DNA from: Bacteroidota bacterium
Lineage (GTDB): Bacteria; Bacteroidota; Bacteroidia; Bacteroidales; VadinHA17
Assembly (NCBI GenBank): GCA_029552825.1
Contig: JAKPDL010000200.1
Span: forward strand, 1 to 40,620
Reading direction: 5' to 3'
DNA length: 40,620 bases
Program-made: the position numbers and the translations under genes
Shown: positions 25,766 to 34,402 of the stretch, piece by piece
Numbering within the stretch: position 1 is the stretch's first letter
Layout of the letters: each line of letters starts with the position of its first letter
The notes under the pieces: model-generated
The model's input: only the letters and a program-made list of their open reading frames with translations
What the model was told of the DNA's origin: nothing
Databases searched by the model: none

Positions 25766-26683
25766 TCAATCATAATTCCATAAATCATCCAGGCTTAAAT
25801 ATCTTTCACCGGAGTCATAGGCAAAGCAAATTATTCGTAAAGTGCCAGAAGCTTCCTCAGCGAGAATCTTTACTGCATGAAGTGAGGCTCCTGTGGATAT
25901 CCCGACAAACAATCCTTCCCTGCGGGCTGCTTCTCTCGCCATCTCATATGCATCCTCATTTCTCACCTGTATAATTCTGTCAATTATTTCTTTATTACAG
26001 TTTTTCGGGACAAATCCGGCACCAATACCCTGTATTTTATGAGGTCCAGGATTGCCACCACTGAGTACAGGGGAATCTGCAGGTTCTACAGCAATTATTT
26101 TAAGTGAAAGGAATTCACCTTTGAGTATCCTTCCAACCCCGCTGATGTGTCCGCCTGTTCCAACGCCTGCTACCATAAAATCAAAACCTTCAGGGAAATC
26201 AGATAATATTTCCGTTGCTGTAGTTTTTGAATGAATATCAGGATTCGCTTTGTTTTCAAACTGCATCGGCATCCATGCGCCTTTTATATCAGCCATTATT
26301 TCCATGGCTTTTTCAACTGCTCCCCGCATTCCATTTTCAGGGGGAGTGATAACAACCTCTGCACCAAATGCCCTGAGAATCTTTCTCCTTTCAACACTCA
26401 TCGATGCGGGCATTACCAGAATTACTCTGTAGCCTTTCCCTGCCCCGACCATTGCTAGACCAATGCCCGTGTTACCGGATGTTGGCTCAACAATAGTTCC
26501 ACCCGGAATTAATTTGCCCGATTTTTCAGCATCCTCGATCATCGCAGCTGCAATACGGTCTTTAATACTCCCACCTGGATTCCTTCTTTCATCCTTTATC
26601 CAGACCTCATGTCCGGGGAAAAGTGCTGAAAGCCTTATATGGGGTGTATTCCCTATTGTATCAATAATATTATAAAACTTCAT
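25766..26683 (-). CDS. cysteine synthase (O-acetylserine sulfhydrylase, CysK/CysM family)
   Basis: A PLP enzyme of 305 residues converting O-acetylserine and sulfide to cysteine in the cytosol. The PLP lysine is K41 in RRNPGGSIKDRIA. VEPTSGNTGIGLAMVGAGKGY is the substrate-binding TSGNTG loop, and MVAGVGTGGHISGVGRILKG is the phosphate-binding Gly loop. A cystathionine beta-synthase-like variant is not excluded, but the length and the neighbouring serine acetyltransferase gene, overlapped by ATGA at 26680-26683, point to cysteine synthesis. It is the last gene of the trp-cys run. CysK and CysM cannot be separated with confidence. Confidence 0.93.
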   Translation of the reverse strand: MKFYNIIDTIGNTPHIRLSALFPGHEVWIKDERRNPGGSIKDRIAAAMIEDAEKSGKLIPGGTIVEPTSGNTGIGLAMVGAGKGYRVILVMPASMSVERRKILRAFGAEVVITPPENGMRGAVEKAMEIMADIKGAWMPMQFENKANPDIHSKTTATEILSDFPEGFDFMVAGVGTGGHISGVGRILKGEFLSLKIIAVEPADSPVLSGGNPGPHKIQGIGAGFVPKNCNKEIIDRIIQVRNEDAYEMAREAARREGLFVGISTGASLHAVKILAEEASGTLRIICFAYDSGERYLSLDDLWNYD

Positions 26684-27474
26684 TTTTTATGATTTTTATT
26701 GTTCCTATCTCTGATCTTCATCACATTCTCATGGTAAACAAGCGAATAAGGAGGCACAGAAGAGGTAAGCCAAACGTTACCCCCAATTATGCTGTCGTGC
26801 CCGATTACTGTTTCACCTCCCAGAATAGTGCTGCCTGCATAAATAACAACATCATCCTCAATGGTCGGGTGACGTTTTTTACCCGCCATATCTTTGCTAA
26901 CGCTCAGAGCTCCAATTGTTACTCCCTGATAAAGCTTCACTCTTCTGCCGATAACAGATGTTTCACCTATCACAACCCCGGTTCCGTGGTCAATAAAAAA
27001 GGGTGAATCGATGGTGGCTTTCGGGTGAATGTCTATACCTGTCAGTGAATGAGCATATTCGGTCATAATTCTCGGTATGAGAGGCACTTCAAGCAATGCA
27101 AGCTTGTTTGCAAGCCTGTAAACAAGGATTGCATAAAACCCGGGATATGTAATTATCACTTCATCTAACGACGTTGCAGCCGGGTCTCCTTCCATTATAA
27201 AGCTTGCATCGGCATCAACCTGTTGTTTGATACCATTCAACGCATCCATAAACCGGTCAGCGATAATTTCAGGAGGCTGAGCAAGATTTGCCCTGACAGA
27301 TGAAAGAATGCGGCAGAGTGAACCTTTTACTTTTCGTGGTGAACGGCATGGGTTATCCATCTCGGCAAGAACAGGATACAGAAATGTTGTTACATTTCGG
27401 ATGAATTCTATTATCATCTTTTTTGAAGGGAACCTTTCATCTTTTCTGCAAATGAAATGTCTGAGCAGTTTCAT
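26680..27474 (-). CDS. cysE: serine O-acetyltransferase
   Basis: A 264-residue enzyme that acetylates serine from acetyl-CoA to give O-acetylserine, the substrate of the next gene. An alpha-helical N-terminal domain is followed by a left-handed beta-helix of hexapeptide repeats with the diagnostic ALTGIDIHPKA-like segment (here SLTGIDIHPKATID), FFIDHGTGVVIGETSVIG, QGVTIGALS and KKRHPTIEDDVVIYAGSTILGG. The C-terminus is NKNHKK rather than a terminal Ile, the residue by which CysE docks into CysK in well-studied cysteine synthase complexes, so that complex may not form in the usual way. It lies 34 bp after trpA with no promoter of good quality between, hence probably part of the trp operon. Confidence 0.93.
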   Translation of the reverse strand: MKLLRHFICRKDERFPSKKMIIEFIRNVTTFLYPVLAEMDNPCRSPRKVKGSLCRILSSVRANLAQPPEIIADRFMDALNGIKQQVDADASFIMEGDPAATSLDEVIITYPGFYAILVYRLANKLALLEVPLIPRIMTEYAHSLTGIDIHPKATIDSPFFIDHGTGVVIGETSVIGRRVKLYQGVTIGALSVSKDMAGKKRHPTIEDDVVIYAGSTILGGETVIGHDSIIGGNVWLTSSVPPYSLVYHENVMKIRDRNNKNHKK

Positions 27475-27508: not shown

Positions 27509-28291
27509 TCATTCTTTCTTTAAGTCCTTCACAAATTTTTTGATATTCTCGTCACTATATCCTTCCTTTTCAAGCATTTTTATAAAAGCGCTTCCAACAA
27601 TTGCACCGTTTGCATATCTGCACGCCTCTGCAAAAGTTTCATTTGATGATATACCGAATCCAATCATGAGAGGATGGGTCAGATTCATACCAGCCACTCT
27701 TTCAAAATAGGCTTTCTGCTCATCATTGAAACCCTGCTTAACACCTGTGACTGATGAAGAAGAAACCATATAAATGAATCCGTCGGTGATGCTGTCAATG
27801 AGTCTTATGCGTTCGGCCTCAGTACTGGGAGATATCAAAAGTATGTTATAAAGTCCGTACTTTCTGAATATTTCTCGGTATTGTTCCGTATAAATTTCCG
27901 GTGGAAGGTCGGGCAGAATAATTCCATCTATGCCTGTTACAGAACAACTCCTGCAAAAATTCTCCATCCCAAATTTTAACACTGGATTGAGATATCCCAT
28001 AAGAAGCAGTGGTATATTCACAGAACTTCGTATACTCTCAAGTTGGTGGAATAATAACCTAAGGCTCATGCCGTTTTTCAATGCATTACTGCTGCTTTTC
28101 TGTATAACCGGTCCGTCGGCAAGGGGGTCTGAAAAGGGGATACCTATTTCAATCATATCTACACCTGCTCGAACCAGGCTATTTATTATACCTGCTGTTG
28201 AGTCAACCTCAGGATATCCTGCTGTAAAATACACCGAAAGGATATTCTTTTTTCCCGAATGAAATAGTTTATCTATACGGTTCATTTTCAC
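27509..28291 (-). CDS. trpA: tryptophan synthase alpha subunit
   Basis: A TIM-barrel enzyme of 260 residues that cleaves indole-3-glycerol phosphate and channels indole to TrpB. Recognisable segments are YFTAGYPEVDSTAGII, MIEIGIPFSDPLADGPVIQKSS with the catalytic Glu in IEIG and Asp in PLADGP, GIDGIILPDLPPE and the phosphate site MIGFGISSNETF / GAIVGSAFIK. It starts within the trpB stop (ATGA overlap 28288-28291), as expected for a subunit pair. Confidence 0.97.
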   Translation of the reverse strand: MKMNRIDKLFHSGKKNILSVYFTAGYPEVDSTAGIINSLVRAGVDMIEIGIPFSDPLADGPVIQKSSSNALKNGMSLRLLFHQLESIRSSVNIPLLLMGYLNPVLKFGMENFCRSCSVTGIDGIILPDLPPEIYTEQYREIFRKYGLYNILLISPSTEAERIRLIDSITDGFIYMVSSSSVTGVKQGFNDEQKAYFERVAGMNLTHPLMIGFGISSNETFAEACRYANGAIVGSAFIKMLEKEGYSDENIKKFVKDLKKE

Positions 28292-29502
28292 ATATTTATA
28301 TTAACCGGTGTTTTACACGATCTATTTTCAAGATATTTAATATAGGATGCCATATCTTTATCGCCTCTTCCAGAAAGGATTACAACTACTATATCGTTTT
28401 CACTGAATTTAATTTTCCCCAGTGCTGCCAGGGCATGGGCAGGTTCGAGTGCCGGGATGATTCCTTCAAATCTCATAAGCCTGAATGCGGCCTCCAGGGC
28501 TTCATCGTCGGTGGCATATTCAAATTTGACTCTGCCGGTTTTGCCCAGCCATGCCAGCTGTGGTCCTATGCCAGGATAATCAAGCCCTGCTGATATGGAA
28601 TAAGGTTCGGTTATCTGTCCGTCATCATTTTGCATGAGTATAGTCCTGCTGCCATGAATTATACCCGGTGTGCCCTCAGTAATTGTTGCAGCAGTCATGC
28701 CTGTTCCGATCCCTTTCCCTGCGGCTTCCACAGCAACAAGTTTTACATCATGATTATCCAGGTAATGATAAAAAGAGCCCGCAGCGTTGCTGCCTCCTCC
28801 TACACATGCAATAATAAAGTCGGGATAGTTCCTCCCGACGTGTTCCTGTAGCTGAAATATAAGCTCTTCACTTATTACCGATTGGAGTCTTGAAACAAGG
28901 TCGGGGTACGGATGCGGGCCAACCACTGATCCAATAAGATAATAAGTGTCGGCGGGATTGCTGATCCAGTCACGTATAGCCTCATTAGTGGCATCTTTTA
29001 GTGTCATATTGCCACTTTCGACAGGAATTACTTCCGCTCCGAGCATTCTCATCCTCAATACGTTGGGAGCCTGCCTCTCCACGTCGAGCTTCCCCATATA
29101 AACCACACACTTAAGTCCCATGAGTGCACACACTGTAGCAGTTGCAACCCCATGTTGCCCTGCACCGGTTTCGGCAATAATCCTTGTTTTACCCAGACGC
29201 TTTGCTATCAGTATCTGACCAATAGTGTTATTAATCTTGTGAGCACCAGTATGGTTCAGGTCTTCACGCTTAAGATATATCTGTGTGCCATAATGTTCCG
29301 ACAACCTCCTGGCAAAATAAAGAGGTGAAGGCCTCCCTGCATAGTTTTTAAGGAAATACTTGAATTCCTTTCTAAAATCTTCACTTTCAATTATCCTCAG
29401 ATAATTTTCCTGCAATTCCCTGATATTTGCATAAAGCATCTCCGGGATAAAGGCTCCGCCGAATTCACCGTAAAAACCTTTCCCGTCAACATTGTATCTC
29501 AT
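28288..29502 (-). CDS. trpB: tryptophan synthase beta subunit
   Basis: The PLP subunit that joins indole and serine to tryptophan. Motifs are GKGFYGEFGGAFIPEM, KREDLNHTGAHKINNTIGQ with the PLP lysine, AETGAGQHGVATATVCALMG, the phosphate loop CVGGGSNAAGSFY, and GLDYPGIGPQLAWL. The frame is open to 29538, overlapping trpF, but the ATG at 29502 gives MRYNVDGKGFYGEFGG as in homologues (404 residues); a 17-base overlap with trpF remains and suggests coupling. Confidence 0.97.
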   Translation of the reverse strand: MRYNVDGKGFYGEFGGAFIPEMLYANIRELQENYLRIIESEDFRKEFKYFLKNYAGRPSPLYFARRLSEHYGTQIYLKREDLNHTGAHKINNTIGQILIAKRLGKTRIIAETGAGQHGVATATVCALMGLKCVVYMGKLDVERQAPNVLRMRMLGAEVIPVESGNMTLKDATNEAIRDWISNPADTYYLIGSVVGPHPYPDLVSRLQSVISEELIFQLQEHVGRNYPDFIIACVGGGSNAAGSFYHYLDNHDVKLVAVEAAGKGIGTGMTAATITEGTPGIIHGSRTILMQNDDGQITEPYSISAGLDYPGIGPQLAWLGKTGRVKFEYATDDEALEAAFRLMRFEGIIPALEPAHALAALGKIKFSENDIVVVILSGRGDKDMASYIKYLENRSCKTPVNINM

Positions 29503-30124
29503 ATTTGATTTTTTTAATAAATACTTCCACTTTTTCAAAATCTTTTATTCCCGGGGAGATTTCAAACCGGCTATTAATGTCGACACCAAAGAACATGTCG
29601 TTTTTGATTTTTCCCAGTTCCTGAACATCACCGGGACCTATGCCTCCGCTCAGGAAAAAAGGTTTTTGAAGGCTGAGGCCGTTGAGAATATCCCAGTTGA
29701 ACTTTTTTCCACTTCCACCATAGAGTCTGCCCCCAGTGTCAAAAAGGAAATAATCGCACACATCACTGTATGCATTTACATGATTTAAATCAATCTTATT
29801 TCCAACTCTGAAAACTTTTATAACCTGCAGACCTGATGCTTTTATTTTCCCACAATAACTAAGATCTTCGTTGCCATGAAGCTGGATAATTCCAATACCT
29901 AAAGATTTAGCTGTCTCAATAATTTTATCATGTTCCTCATCCACAAAAACCCCTACCCTGCCTATGGTATCCGGTATGCTGCCGAAAATATTTCTGTCAG
30001 GGTTTTTGCCAATATACCTTGGAGACTCTGTGGAAAAGATAAAACCTGCAAAGTCGATCCCGGTTTCGCAAATCTTTTTTACGTTTTCGGGGTCCTTCAG
30101 TCCACATACTTTTACTTTAATCAT
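29486..30124 (-). CDS. trpF: phosphoribosylanthranilate isomerase
   Basis: Third step after anthranilate in tryptophan synthesis, an Amadori rearrangement on a TIM barrel. The family start MIKVKVCGLKDPENVKKI contains the catalytic Cys of KVCGL(K/T); FAGFIFSTESPRYIG, VGVFVDEEHDKI, IIQLHGNED, YFLFDTGG and FFLSGGIGPGDVQEL follow in order. The frame opens at 30145 but the ATG at 30124 fits the family. It lies 33 bp after trpC from this start, and its end overlaps trpB. Confidence 0.95.
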   Translation of the reverse strand: MIKVKVCGLKDPENVKKICETGIDFAGFIFSTESPRYIGKNPDRNIFGSIPDTIGRVGVFVDEEHDKIIETAKSLGIGIIQLHGNEDLSYCGKIKASGLQVIKVFRVGNKIDLNHVNAYSDVCDYFLFDTGGRLYGGSGKKFNWDILNGLSLQKPFFLSGGIGPGDVQELGKIKNDMFFGVDINSRFEISPGIKDFEKVEVFIKKIKYEIQC

Positions 30125-30157
30125 CTCAAATCCCTTTCTGGACAATTCATGTCAGTT

Positions 30158-30943
30158 CTATTCTTTTACCATTTTAACGAATTCCTTAAAAGCTTTCACC
30201 GGATCGGGTCTTGACATGAATGCTTCGCCAATCAGAAACCCGTCGTACCCGGCTTTTATAAGATCTTTCAGCACTTCGGGTGATGAAATGCCACTTTCGG
30301 AAATTTTTACAAAACCTTCAGGTATTTTACCTGCAAGTTTGAAGGATGTATTTGTATCAACTTCAAGTGTTAAAAGATTGCGGTTATTTACCCCTATAAT
30401 GTTTACATATTCATTAACCTTATCAAGTTCTGCTTCGGAGTGAATCTCAAGGACCACTTCCAGACCTGTCTTTCTTGCCGTCCGGGCAAGCCGGTACACT
30501 TCATTAGTCTCCAGCAATGAGGCAATAAGCAGTATAGCATCTGCCCCTGAATATTTAGCCTCATAAATCTGGATCTCATCAATTACAAAATCTTTCTGAA
30601 GGATCGGAAGTCCTGTAGAAAGTCGTACCATCGAAATATCACCTATTGATCCACCGAAATACTTTTTCTCTGTCAGGATTGATAGTCCTGCTGCACCCCC
30701 CTCTTCATAACCTTTCACAACATCGGCTATTTTTGCCTGGTGGTTAAGAACTCCTTTCGAAGGCGACATCCTTTTAAACTCGGCTATAATTCCTGGTGTC
30801 GGACTATTTTTAAGGGCGTCGGAAAGAGAAACAATCTCTCTGCCGATTCTTTTGCGCTTCTCATAATCAGTTGCGGAAATCAGTCTCTTCATCTGAGCGA
30901 TTTCCTGTTTTTTCATTTCAGCTATCTGTTCCAGAAAATTCAT
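30158..30943 (-). CDS. trpC: indole-3-glycerol-phosphate synthase
   Basis: A TIM-barrel enzyme of 261 residues that cyclises the carboxyphenylamino-ribulose intermediate. Motifs are IIAEFKRMSPSKGVLN with the catalytic Lys (I-A-E-x-K-x-x-S-P-S), AAGLSILTEKKYFGGS, LPILQKDFVIDEIQIYEAKYSGADAILLI, VLEIHSEAEL, GVNNRNLLTLEVD and VKISESGISSPEVL. It overlaps the trpD stop by ATGA. It is a separate gene, not fused to trpF as in E. coli. Confidence 0.97.
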   Translation of the reverse strand: MNFLEQIAEMKKQEIAQMKRLISATDYEKRKRIGREIVSLSDALKNSPTPGIIAEFKRMSPSKGVLNHQAKIADVVKGYEEGGAAGLSILTEKKYFGGSIGDISMVRLSTGLPILQKDFVIDEIQIYEAKYSGADAILLIASLLETNEVYRLARTARKTGLEVVLEIHSEAELDKVNEYVNIIGVNNRNLLTLEVDTNTSFKLAGKIPEGFVKISESGISSPEVLKDLIKAGYDGFLIGEAFMSRPDPVKAFKEFVKMVKE

Positions 30944-31986
30944 TGTTGCATCTTTATTAATGTGTTAAATGAATCAAGTGCTTTTCTGTTGAAAAGTGAA
31001 TCTTCAGCCATTTTCCTGCACTCATCAGGTGATTTTTCAGGAAAGCAGCATCTTATTGCAAGCTGGGAATTAGCCAGAACCACATTATTCTGAGCTTCAG
31101 AACCATTACCTTCAAGAATTCTGGTGAAAATATCAGCCGATTCAGCTACTGTCCTGCCTCCAGCCAGTTCCATGGGTTGAACTGCTTCATATCCCAGTTC
31201 ATCAGGAGCTAATATTTGTTCCCTACCATTGAAGATGTATCTGAAAGGTGCGGTAAGTGAAACTTCGTCGTAACCGTCGAGGCTGTGGACAACTGCATAA
31301 CTGACATCTGTTTCCTGATAAAGATAATTATACAACCTGGCAAGCTCCAGGCTGTAAACTCCAACCAGTTGGCGTCTGGGCAATGACGGGTTGACCGTTG
31401 GCCCCAGCATGTTGAAGAAAGTCTTAACCTTAAGAGCTCTGCGCACCGGAGCAACAGTTTTCATTGCGGGGTTGAACAAGGGTGCATGCAGAAAACAAAG
31501 GCCAGCCCGCTCAAGCTCCCGCTTTAGCTTGCCGGTATCGGTCGAAAACTTATATCCAAAATGTTCAAGGATATTTGATGATCCGCATGCCGAAGTCACT
31601 CCGTAATTACCATGTTTTGCAACCTTTATTCCGGCTCCAGCAAGAACGAAAGCGGTAAGTGTTGATATATTAAATGTTTCCTTGTTATCACCGCCTGTGC
31701 CGCATACATCAATGGTATCAAACTCTGAAAGATCAACCCTGTTGCACAGATTAAGCAGGGCATTGCGGAAGCCTGACAGCTCTTCAACAGTGATGCTGCG
31801 CATCAGATAAACAGTAATGAATGCAGCAATTTCAGCTTCGGAATATTTGCCGCCTGCTATGTTAATCATAACCTCTTCAGCCTCCGGGCGGCTGAGAGTT
31901 TTGTGCTCAAAGAGATAGTTTAATATCTTCCTCATAAATGTATCGTATAAATTTTCAATATGTTTAACAAATTCATAATCTGTCAT
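30940..31986 (-). CDS. trpD: anthranilate phosphoribosyltransferase
   Basis: Transfers phosphoribose from PRPP to anthranilate. The signature DTIDVCGTGGDNKETFNIST is the PRPP pyrophosphate site; KHGNYGVTSACGSSNILEHFG and FLHAPLFNPAMKTVAPVRRALKVKTFFNMLGPTVNP follow. The ATG at 31986 overlaps the trpG stop as ATGA, like other junctions in this operon. An internal ATG at 31935 gives MRKILNYLFEHKTLSRPEAE, where many homologues begin, so the start is uncertain by 17 codons. It is a stand-alone enzyme, not fused to the amidotransferase. Confidence 0.96.
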   Translation of the reverse strand: MTDYEFVKHIENLYDTFMRKILNYLFEHKTLSRPEAEEVMINIAGGKYSEAEIAAFITVYLMRSITVEELSGFRNALLNLCNRVDLSEFDTIDVCGTGGDNKETFNISTLTAFVLAGAGIKVAKHGNYGVTSACGSSNILEHFGYKFSTDTGKLKRELERAGLCFLHAPLFNPAMKTVAPVRRALKVKTFFNMLGPTVNPSLPRRQLVGVYSLELARLYNYLYQETDVSYAVVHSLDGYDEVSLTAPFRYIFNGREQILAPDELGYEAVQPMELAGGRTVAESADIFTRILEGNGSEAQNNVVLANSQLAIRCCFPEKSPDECRKMAEDSLFNRKALDSFNTLIKMQQ

Positions 31987-32558
31987 TTATGTATCTCAAG
32001 CCAGTTCCTGATTATATTCATTCCGTATTCAGTCATTACTGATTCGGGATGGAACTGAAGCCCCCTGACATTATATTCGACATGACTTATGCCCATTATG
32101 ATGCCGTTGTCATCCTCGCAGGTTATTCTGAAGCAGGCAGGCAGATGTTTTCGTGAGACTACCCATGAATGGTATCTTCCGGCCATAAAAATTGGTGGTA
32201 TATTTTTGAAAAGAGGTTCATCAGGAGTCTTCACTTTAACCGGTGCCGAGATGCCGTGGTACACAGTGCTTAGGTTGAGCAGTTTGCCTCCAAAAGCCTC
32301 ACAAATAGCCTGATGTCCGAGGCATATCCCGAGTATACTTTTTTCAGCAGCCCACCTTTTAATCAGCTCAAGACAGATACCTGCTTCAGAAGGGATTCCC
32401 GGGCCCGGCGAAATAAGAATCCTGTCATACCTGCCGGCATCTTCAACAGTGATTTCATCGTTTCTGAATACATCGGGCCTTTCACCAGATATCTTTTCGA
32501 CATAATGAATAAGGTTATAAGCAAACGAATCGTAATTATCAATGACAACTGTTTTCAT
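31983..32558 (-). CDS. trpG: anthranilate synthase amidotransferase subunit
   Basis: A class I glutamine amidotransferase of 191 residues supplying ammonia to TrpE. It has the oxyanion segment ILISPGPGIPSEAG, the nucleophile Cys in ILGICLGHQAICEAFGG, and the His-Glu of the triad in LQFHPESVMTEYG. It could in principle also serve PabB, as in some bacteria, but the operon context supports TrpG. It overlaps trpE and trpD by ATGA at both ends. Confidence 0.96.
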   Translation of the reverse strand: MKTVVIDNYDSFAYNLIHYVEKISGERPDVFRNDEITVEDAGRYDRILISPGPGIPSEAGICLELIKRWAAEKSILGICLGHQAICEAFGGKLLNLSTVYHGISAPVKVKTPDEPLFKNIPPIFMAGRYHSWVVSRKHLPACFRITCEDDNGIIMGISHVEYNVRGLQFHPESVMTEYGMNIIRNWLEIHK

Positions 32559-33967
32559 TTTATTTCCTCCGCCGTTTTAACTGCATGTTTTAGAGCGTCG
32601 AGTTTATTATTTACTTCCTGGAGTTCCTTCTCCTCGTCGGAGCCAGCAACTATTCCAGCACCAGCCTGATAAAAGAGCCTGTTACCCATGCTCAGAAAAG
32701 TCCTGATCATGATTGCATGGTTAAGTACACCCCTGAAGTCAATGAATCCTATCGCACCTCCGTAATACCCTCTTTTCTGGTTTTCATATCTGTCTATCAG
32801 CTGCATTGCCATATGTTTCGGTGCTCCGGTTAGTGTGCCAGCAGGGAAAGTGGCAGCCAGCATCTCAGCCATGGTAGTACCTTCCCTGAGTTCCCCCGAA
32901 ACAGATGAAACAAGGTGTATAACATGTGAATAGAACTGAACTTCCCTGAGATTTTCGACCGTTACATTTCCTGCATGCCGGCTCAGATCGTTGCGGGCAA
33001 GATCAACAAGCATGATATGTTCAGCATTCTCTTTCTGGTCATATCCGAGGCGTTCAGCCATCATCTTATCGGCCTCATCGTTGCCGGTACGACGGTAAGT
33101 GCCTGCTATGGGATTGATATAAGCTTTCCCCCGGTTTATTTTAAGATGTGCCTCGGGGGAAGAGCCGAAGATTTTATAATTACCGTAATCAAAATAGAAC
33201 AGATAAGGCGACGGATTTATAGACCTGAGGGTTCTATATACATTAAATTCATCTCCTTTAAAATCAACTGAATACTGACGCGACAGAACAACCTGGAAAA
33301 CATCTCCCCGGTAGCAGTGCTCCTTGCCTTTTTTTACTATTTGTTTATATTGCTCGTCGGTGATGTTGCTCTTCTCATGACCTGTTGTTCTGAACCTGTA
33401 AATGGCAAAATTTCTGTTCCTGAGAAGGTCCTCGATATTTCCCGCTTCACTTGAATTATCACCGTTAATCTGGTTTTCTATAATATAGAGAATGTTCTGA
33501 TGGTGATTTACAGCAATAATATATTTATAAAAATCATATCGTACATGTGGTATCCGGCAATCGGTATTTTCTGGTGCCTGGAGTCTTATTTTTTCAACAT
33601 ACTGAACAGCATCATACGACATATATCCGAAAATTCCGTTTACAGGAATTTCGTTGTCGGTTTCTGTCAGAGTGAATGACTCAAAGAATGAGGAGAACCT
33701 TTGCAGAAAATCTTGCGGAGATGTTATTAAATGATTCAATATGGTTCCGTCGGGATATATTTCCTTGATTTTTCCGTTATCGGCTACAAAGCCGGCAACA
33801 GGTTTAAGGCAAATGAAGGAATAGCTGTTTTCTGTACCATGGTAATCGGAACTTTCGAGCAGAAGTGAATTGGGGAAGATATCCCTCAGTCTCAGATAGA
33901 TGCTTACCGGCGTTATTGTATCGGCAAGCAGTTTTCTGCATGTCGTTCTGATGTAAAATTTTTTCAT
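32555..33967 (-). CDS. trpE: anthranilate synthase component I
   Basis: The chorismate-using subunit of 470 residues, first structural gene of the operon. The N-terminal regulatory domain has SLLLESS (35-40), the motif that forms the tryptophan feedback pocket, so allosteric inhibition is expected. The catalytic part shows KGKEHCYRGDVFQVVLSRQYS, SSPEAHLKI, NPIAGTYRRTGNDEADK, DLARNDLSRHAG and AATFPAGTLTGAPKHMAMQLIDRYE. Its ATG lies about 400 bases after the predicted transcription start, leaving a long leader with a Trp/Cys-rich small ORF and a hairpin. Both attenuation and feedback therefore look likely. Confidence 0.97.
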   Translation of the reverse strand: MKKFYIRTTCRKLLADTITPVSIYLRLRDIFPNSLLLESSDYHGTENSYSFICLKPVAGFVADNGKIKEIYPDGTILNHLITSPQDFLQRFSSFFESFTLTETDNEIPVNGIFGYMSYDAVQYVEKIRLQAPENTDCRIPHVRYDFYKYIIAVNHHQNILYIIENQINGDNSSEAGNIEDLLRNRNFAIYRFRTTGHEKSNITDEQYKQIVKKGKEHCYRGDVFQVVLSRQYSVDFKGDEFNVYRTLRSINPSPYLFYFDYGNYKIFGSSPEAHLKINRGKAYINPIAGTYRRTGNDEADKMMAERLGYDQKENAEHIMLVDLARNDLSRHAGNVTVENLREVQFYSHVIHLVSSVSGELREGTTMAEMLAATFPAGTLTGAPKHMAMQLIDRYENQKRGYYGGAIGFIDFRGVLNHAIMIRTFLSMGNRLFYQAGAGIVAGSDEEKELQEVNNKLDALKHAVKTAEEIK

Positions 33968-34224
33968 TTGTAATTACTTTTATATTTTTTTGATTATCTG
34001 TTTTTTCCTTTTCAACTTTACTTACCTCCATCTTTACCTTAAGGGCTATCTAAAAAGCCTCTTATTGTTTTCACCCCTGAATCCCCTCCTTTACTATTGA
34101 AAAGCCGGACAGGCCCTGAGAGGTGACTTATTGATATATAATATTTTTAGTTTTTGTGTTTTCATTGTACTTACCTAATAAACATCTTTTTTGACAGTCC
34201 CATGTAGTATGAGTATTTTAAACA
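33968..34224 (-). other. distal part of the trp leader, no recognised element
   Basis: About 257 bases lie between the leader hairpin and the trpE ATG. They contain small ATG/GTG-started ORFs (for example 34094-34165, beginning MKTQKLKILYINK) and a purine-rich AAAGGAGGGG stretch at about 34084-34093, but no strong hairpin and no good promoter match. This is longer than an attenuator needs, so a second control element or an unrecognised small gene is possible. Confidence 0.3.
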
Positions 34225-34258
34225 ACAGCGGCCTGCCGTGAGTACGGCAGGCCGCTGT
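34225..34258 (-). terminator. trp-cys operon attenuator hairpin
   Basis: ACAGCGGCCTGCCGT (34225-34239) pairs perfectly with ACGGCAGGCCGCTGT (34244-34258): a 15-bp GC-rich stem with a 4-base loop in otherwise AT-rich DNA. On the minus strand it is followed by TGTTTAAAA, a modest U-stretch. It lies 36 bp after the stop of the leader ORF and before trpE. The loop region (34237-34244) is complementary over 8 bases to 34292-34299, which includes the leader stop codon, offering an alternative, termination-preventing pairing. Confidence 0.65.
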
Positions 34259-34294
34259 CAAAATCCTTTAAACTTTACAAACGGGTGTACCTAC

Positions 34295-34354
34295 TCACGT
34301 GGTTCCGGGAACCATTGAGCAACACCAGCACCAGTTTGTAAATAATACTTTCAT
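34295..34354 (-). CDS. trp-cys operon leader peptide (19 residues, W-C-W-C-C)
   Basis: ATG at 34354 to TGA at 34295-34297 encodes MKVLFTNWCWCCSMVPGTT. Codons 8-12 are TGG TGC TGG TGT TGC: two Trp and three Cys, the two rarest residues in most proteins, in a row. It starts about 18 bp after the -7 box of a perfect promoter and precedes a terminator-like hairpin, the arrangement of classical amino-acid leader peptides. The codons lie in the 5' strand of a possible stem: 34334-34342 is complementary to 34274-34282 over 9 bp, and 34322-34326 to 34284-34288 over 5 bp. The downstream operon makes both tryptophan and cysteine. That the peptide is translated and that ribosome stalling controls readthrough are inferences. 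Confidence 0.8.
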   Translation of the reverse strand: MKVLFTNWCWCCSMVPGTT

Positions 34355-34371: not shown

Positions 34372-34402
34372 CAAATGTAAATAATATTTTTAAAAAATCA
34401 AA
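34372..34402 (-). promoter_or_regulatory. promoter of the trp-cys operon
   Basis: On the minus strand TTTG (34399-34402), exactly 19 bp, then TACATTTG (34372-34379): a perfect match to the Bacteroidetes -33/-7 consensus. The predicted start is about 10 bases before the leader-peptide ATG. Confidence 0.8.

Follow-up and report, generated by a model that had tools for sequence, protein, structure and literature searches.

The window analysed here is a 40,620-nt stretch of DNA from a Bacteroidota bacterium (Bacteroidales, VadinHA17; assembly GCA_029552825.1, contig JAKPDL010000200.1). Its minus strand encodes trpE (32555..33967), trpG (31983..32558), trpD (30940..31986), trpC (30158..30943), trpF (29486..30145), trpB (28288..29538), trpA (27509..28291), the serine acetyltransferase gene cysE (26680..27474), and the cysteine synthase A gene cysK (25766..26683). 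Genes were identified by family search, and trpE, trpF, and cysE fall below the curated cut-off of the best model. NCBIfam matches bear out the order trpE-G-D-C-F-B-A-cysE-cysK given in the original prediction. A 34-bp gap separates trpA from cysE, and cysE shares 4 bp with cysK.

A 19-codon leader ORF, MKVLFTNWCWCCSMVPGTT with stop codon TGA, lies upstream of trpE on the minus strand (34354..34295) and was aligned with 26 other leaders of the same clade. Codons 8–12 are TGG TGC TGG TGT TGC in a row (Trp Cys Trp Cys Cys; 34319..34333, minus strand), exactly as first read. Short ORFs (ATG start, 10–40 codons) were counted in shuffled sequence. One short ORF with five Trp or Cys residues in five codons occurs in the window; dinucleotide shuffling produced none, with the window shuffled 40 times and the intergenic stretch 2000 times. 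ORFs with four of five arise at 0.225 per shuffle of the window and 0.003 per shuffle of the intergenic stretch. Trp and Cys make up 1.3% and 1.0% of residues in 17 window proteins, and the run in the leader ORF is beyond chance expectation.

The leader ORF is preceded by TTTG-N19-TAcaTTTG (34402-34372, minus strand), with a −33 element TTTG (34399..34402) and a −7 element TAcaTTTG (34372..34379), which we take to agree with the Bacteroidota promoter consensus. The pattern TTTG-N18-21-TAnnTTTG is found upstream of 24 of the 27 aligned same-clade leaders and matches 3 of 5400 mononucleotide shuffles. The promoter claimed ahead of the ORF holds as one of Bacteroidota type. A generic promoter scan was rejected because it seeks sigma-70 hexamers, which are unsuited to the phylum.

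Between the leader ORF and trpE lies the 15-bp intrinsic terminator hairpin that had been predicted there (34225..34258, minus strand), with a 4-nt ACTC loop and a weak T-tract, TTGTTTAAA, directly after it (34217..34224, minus strand). The hairpin was not listed by a generic terminator scan of the window; its T-tract is poor. A 159-bp dispersed MITE-like repeat with inverted ends of the GGGNCTGTCTAAAAAG type separates terminator and trpE (34201-34043, minus strand). Elsewhere in this genome it gives 17 more match rows, of which five are near full length and some are pieces of one copy, and by eye it is absent from the sister genome G016.

Trp leaders in relatives

Within the genus, 32 of 62 genomes gave a TrpE match at E ≤ 1e-100; within the family, 49 of 117 did so at E ≤ 1e-150. 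The other 30 genus genomes, among them 16 of 37 good-quality ones, show none at the genus threshold, and many of them may be auxotrophic for Trp or encode a different TrpE. A leader with a Trp run precedes trpE in all 27 cases with upstream DNA in the window's TrpE clade within the genus. The 27-leader alignment comprises the window, 25 leaders from 24 other genomes, and the named locus L033 ("Zod"). Genome G061 was omitted because its contig begins inside trpE, and G023, G001, G015, G029, G008, and G082 were omitted as genus members with more distant TrpE; leaders of these six (L145-L150) read WWW and then Q or R. Conservation of the ORF in close relatives, which the original prediction had offered for checking, was found: leaders have 19 codons in 25 of the 27 cases, 18 in Zod, and 22 in G076. 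Two of the 27 leaders come from one genome, G067, which is listed with 5% contamination and has two trpE copies (C122 and C516; L127 and L128) with differing leaders that both read NWCWWL.

Named Bacteroidota loci were sampled as the best 80 of 591 from one contig scan. A loose script picked up a Trp-run leader ahead of trpE in 73 of these 80, with at least L099 doubtful, and most of these leaders read WWW.

RNA structure and the Bacteroid-trp family

Four further elements on the minus strand were placed around the leader ORF and terminator. Region 1, TTTACAAACTGGTG (34329..34342), is the putative 5′ side of a protector stem and region 2, CACCCGTTTGTAAA (34274..34287), its partner; both are suggested by a weak alignment to Rfam family RF01692 and some covariation. 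The predicted antiterminator pairs a 5′ side, CGTGAGTA (34292..34299), which overlaps the stop codon, with a 3′ side, TACTCACG (34237..34244), which lies in the terminator loop and the first bases of the terminator 3′ arm. Conserved pairing and folding point to this second helix.

Pairing was scored across the 27 leaders. The terminator is paired in 99.1% of cells and covaries, with double changes in 7 of 12 pairs (22 cells) and 0 of 500 shuffles scoring as high. The lower region 1:2 stem is 83.6% paired with seven doubly changed cells, again with 0 of 500 shuffles as high; slid by two columns it is 66–68% paired and has a nearly equal covariation score because the stretch is A/T-rich. The antiterminator GTGAG:CTCAC is paired in 94.4% of cells versus 22–73% when slid, and its covariation is not beyond shuffles in this alignment. 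In 26 of the 27 leaders the stop codon is TGA with a G after it (34297-34294 in the window). This stretch is complementary to the loop of the terminator, a hint that the context of the stop codon belongs to the switch.

Leaders were folded with a ribosome mask reaching from 18 nt before to 12 nt past the first base of the A-site codon. With the A-site at each of codons 8–12 of the window leader, the antiterminator forms with P=1.0. Mean antiterminator probability for stalls at codons 8–12 is at least 0.5 in 23 of 27 leaders, and in 22 and 23 of 27 with 10- and 14-nt footprints; such stalls do not favor the antiterminator on average in four (G067a, G005, G025, and G076). A probability of zero with the ribosome at the stop codon results from masking of the site and is no test. 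In the equilibrium fold the antiterminator forms without a ribosome in 7 of 27 leaders, the window included, and the protector stem would therefore have to act kinetically. In another run, which used longer pairing sites on four leaders, three behaved much as above and G025 gave mixed results. In that run the window kept its antiterminator for A-site codons 2–15, so the control window is not specific to Trp and Cys codons; these are set apart within the stall range by the rarity of both amino acids. The Cys codons lie inside the predicted stall window, and a stall at Cys is predicted to equal one at Trp.

The Bacteroid-trp leader RNA appears in a table of Weinberg et al. 2010 (PMC2864571). No Rfam match was found in the window at gathering thresholds. 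RF01692 aligns in register with the window leader (34377-34246) at 22.6 bits and E 6.7, well short of its 49-bit cut-off. At E ≤ 0.05 it matched 1 of 15 loci, the same-genus G018/L014, which scores 64.9 bits, above the cut-off, and belongs to the same clade with a leader alignable to that of the window. At its own search settings RF01692 matched 9 of 119 genomes of the order, 7 of them over the cut-off, and neither the window genome (G000) nor G030 was among them. The window leader shares the Bacteroid-trp placement ahead of Bacteroidota trp genes, with Trp codons in a short ORF and a protector stem in register. It differs in its sub-threshold score, in Cys codons standing in place of Trp codons, and in a trp operon that runs on into cysE-cysK. 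By comparison, the window leader appears to be a relative of the Bacteroid-trp leader. The best weak Rfam match, RF_site6 (32.1 bits, cut-off 90), was dismissed as a polymerase frameshift element whose sole stem falls on the terminator hairpin.

Control codons and operon content

Of the 27 leaders, 14 have Cys at codon 9, nine have Arg, and four have Trp (G075, G018, G021, and Zod). Cys9 is written TGT or TGC and Arg9 always CGT, and every one of the 27 has G in the middle of this codon. Cys at both codons 11 and 12 is confined to the window genome and its sister G016, whose Trp/Cys runs differ by one silent change. Cys11 alone occurs in Zod, which is among neither the linked nor the settled unlinked cases below; codon 11 elsewhere is Trp, Gln (G011), Leu or Ser (G079 and G004), or Arg (G065).

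In 5 of the 27 cases trpA is followed by cysE-cysK on the same strand. The runs are WCWCC in G000 and G016, WCWWF in G030 and G074, and WCWQ in G011. Absence of linkage is settled in 12 cases, seven with Arg9 (G017, G062, G019, G065, G005, G032, and G076) and five with Cys9 (G024, G025, G028, G071, and G079); contigs end before linkage is visible in the remaining 10. G024 has just 521 bp after trpA, yet no CysE match in its whole genome, and G071 has trpA and trpE on separate contigs that were taken as one gene set. G079 is a part-exception: right after trpA (L143) it has a reductase-like ORF, named by eye as pyrroline-5-carboxylate-reductase-like, and a distant cysK-like ORF (41% identity), perhaps an independent case of a cys gene being joined to trp. 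For two contig-end cases with Cys9, G004 and G012, a genome-wide search at E ≤ 1e-10 found no CysE. Same-strand cysE or cysK was absent from all 60 of the 80 named loci whose sequence extends 8 kb or more beyond the start of trpE. A search of the order for this CysE subtype at E ≤ 1e-95, with other CysE types outside its scope, gave matches in 3 of 295 genomes, each a member of the window's genus.

Cys9 is present in 5 of 5 linked leaders versus 5 of 12 settled unlinked leaders (one-sided Fisher ~0.04, by hand, uncorrected for kinship). A midpoint-rooted TrpE tree with 34 rows requires linkage to have changed twice, once for G000/G016/G030/G074 and once for G011, as forced by starred branches; the starred sister of G011 is the unlinked G076. 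Cys9 falls on both sides of deep forks, including the branch G024/G025/G079/G004. The original prediction had offered as a check of dual sensing that Trp/Cys codons be kept only in leaders whose trp genes are linked to cysE/cysK. The check did not bear this out: Cys9 stands in five unlinked operons, and linked G011 lacks extra Cys codons. Only the Cys11-Cys12 pair is confined to linked operons. An origin of Cys9 through cysE-cysK is contradicted, since it occurs without the linkage, and these comparisons indicate that Cys9 predates linkage or is independent of it. The Cys11-Cys12 pair is compatible with fitting to cysE-cysK, but its presence in two sister genomes makes it a single evolutionary event.

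Genes beside the Arg9 leaders were inspected in seven operons (L126, L129, L130, L133, L134, L135, and L141). The ORF after trpA is presumably ammonium-transporter-like in all seven, and the next ORF in five of them we take to be P-II-like. The order in G011 (L138) is presumably trp-cysE-cysK-amt; amt was named by family search in the window only and by signature elsewhere. Arginine genes were sought beside WRWW leaders, and none was found after trpA in the seven operons where visible.

Upstream regions of 28 same-genus cysE genes were scanned for runs of TGY, and no common pattern of Cys leaders ahead of stand-alone cysE-cysK was found; these regions were therefore not counted as support for Cys sensing. 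Three consecutive TGY triplets occur in L175 and L220, with no Cys-rich short ORF in L175, and L163, L168, and L183 have ORFs with a few Cys codons. The only strongly Cys-rich short ATG ORF among the 28 regions is MQHSKIYNILTCNNILCCYCCCCIC in G026 (L177), with eight Cys about 200 nt upstream of a stand-alone cysE-cysK. No terminator-like hairpin accompanies it in a scan of 25 regions for ORF and hairpin.

Sixteen leaders were taken from other genera of the family. Cys directly precedes the Trp run (TCWWW) in 6 of the 16, all of genus g185, and a seventh g185 leader reads TYWWW. Five of the six g185 Cys leaders have more than 8 kb downstream of trpE with no cysE or cysK. The leader of G376 (L215) reads SWCWCLW, and its trpA, on another contig than the leader, is convergent with a CysE match; a WCWC leader therefore exists in a genome whose cysE is not co-transcribed with trpA. 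In G369, with leader RWWGWWTW, cysE and cysK face the trp operon. The cysE gene adjoins trpA on the opposite strand in both genomes (L214 in G369, together with cysK; L218/L222 in G376), and the trp-cysEK neighborhood may therefore predate the joint operon. Cys in or beside the Trp run was seen in 2 of 72 other named-locus leaders besides L033, one of them doubtful.

Attenuation and amino-acid sensing

The window leader is probably a Bacteroidota-type trp leader that attenuates transcription by way of the translating ribosome and has Cys codons in its control window. Given its anatomy, its relatives and their conserved Trp leaders, and the covarying terminator, the reading as a Trp attenuator appears well supported by comparative sequence. 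We infer the following course from the predicted antiterminator. With ample charged tRNA the ribosome would reach the stop codon and cover the GTGAG stretch, which would block the antiterminator and let the terminator hairpin halt RNA polymerase before trpE. A stall in codons 8–12 would mask region 1 and leave GTGAG free to pair with the CTCAC of the terminator loop; RNA polymerase would then read on into trp-cysEK. Because three Cys codons lie inside the control window, Cys-tRNA shortage would be expected to relieve termination too, and in this model Cys starvation may well do so. Single-base changes are the probable origin of the Cys codons, in a Trp run for codons 9 and 11 and in a Phe codon for codon 12.

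Leaders of the enterobacterial trp operon combine a leader peptide with Trp codons, alternative hairpins, and a terminator, and the Arg codon after the run in E. coli provides a response to Arg. The window leader resembles trpL in these parts, with the antiterminator among its hairpins a predicted one; trpL is not known to have Cys codons. We know of no previously described trp leader with Cys codons, as the original prediction held. The thr leader reads Thr and Ile, and the ilv leader reads Ile, Val, and Leu. Like the window leader, these have mixed control codons matching several products, but their amino acids share one pathway and Trp and Cys do not.

Literature searches for a joint Trp/Cys leader returned none in any title or abstract among the matches listed. 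In Rhodobacterales, the cysS leader uORFC-8-2 is a short ORF that contains Cys codons in tandem and precedes a terminator stem (PMC8632094); it differs from the window leader in reading Cys only, in preceding cysS, and in its alphaproteobacterial host. Actinobacterial leader peptides have runs of Cys codons before cys genes, with no conserved terminator hairpin reported in the portion consulted (PMC1262725), and differ from the window leader on that count and in reading Cys only. Leader-peptide attenuation has been suggested before amino-acid operons of a flavobacterium (PMC9723704), and short ORFs reminiscent of leader peptides have been suggested in Bacteroides thetaiotaomicron (PMC7366714).

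What the Cys codons do was weighed among three readings. They may be near-neutral replacements in a plain Trp attenuator with no notable regulatory effect, which we hold tentatively as a possibility short of probable. Trp is replaced in the aligned runs by C, R, S, G, H, Q, and L, of which C, R, S, G, and L are by eye one base from TGG, and Cys codons have no firm tie to operon content. However, a row of five codons for rare amino acids is not expected by chance, and a ribosome stalled at Cys is predicted to act as at Trp.

The original prediction proposed a dual Trp/Cys attenuator, and the part of it that stands is an attenuator-type leader, widespread before trpE in the phylum, with Cys codons in the predicted stall window. 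As a sensor fitted to its operon, it would have had its Cys codons selected because cysE and cysK joined trp, so that starvation for either amino acid induces both pathways. We regard this as rather doubtful. The double Cys confined to linked operons, the higher share of Cys9 among linked leaders, the run kept between G000 and G016, and the position of Cys stalls in the control window argue for it. Moreover, 2 of 7 single changes of TGG to a sense codon and 1 of 8 non-silent changes of the Phe codon give Cys, and both codons would end as Cys by chance in ~4% of cases if each changed once, from Trp and Phe. Cys9 in unlinked operons, WCWQ in the separate linked lineage G011, WCWWF in linked G030 and G074, and WCWC in G376 with its convergent cysE argue against it. 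So do Arg9 in seven operons with an ammonium-transporter-like rather than an arginine gene after trpA, the change of codon 11 to C, Q, L or S, and R across lineages, Cys in L033, and the single origin of the double Cys. In its narrower form, Trp and Cys would be read together through Cys11-Cys12 selected after cysE-cysK joined, atop an older Cys codon, and we judge this version unlikely as well.

Genus-wide cross-pathway control, with Cys9 kept so that trp responds to Cys (or sulfur or serine) shortage whatever genes follow, seems less likely still: Cys9 occurs on several branches with both of its codons and Cys precedes the Trp run in six of seven g185 leaders, five of them shown without cysE/cysK, but codon 9 is Arg or Trp in the other same-clade leaders, its invariant middle G also fits an RNA constraint, and Cys in or beside the run is rare in the other named loci.

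Leaders of the genus offer natural variants that read WCWCC, WCWWF, WCWQ, WCWWL, WRWWL, and WWWWL, with and without cysEK. If dual sensing is false, the locus is a caution against inferring operon products from non-Trp codons in a Trp run. If it is true, a single peptide would tie together two pathways that have only serine in common, an attenuator would have changed its codons after its operon gained new genes, and this would be the first leader known to us that joins two unrelated amino-acid pathways.
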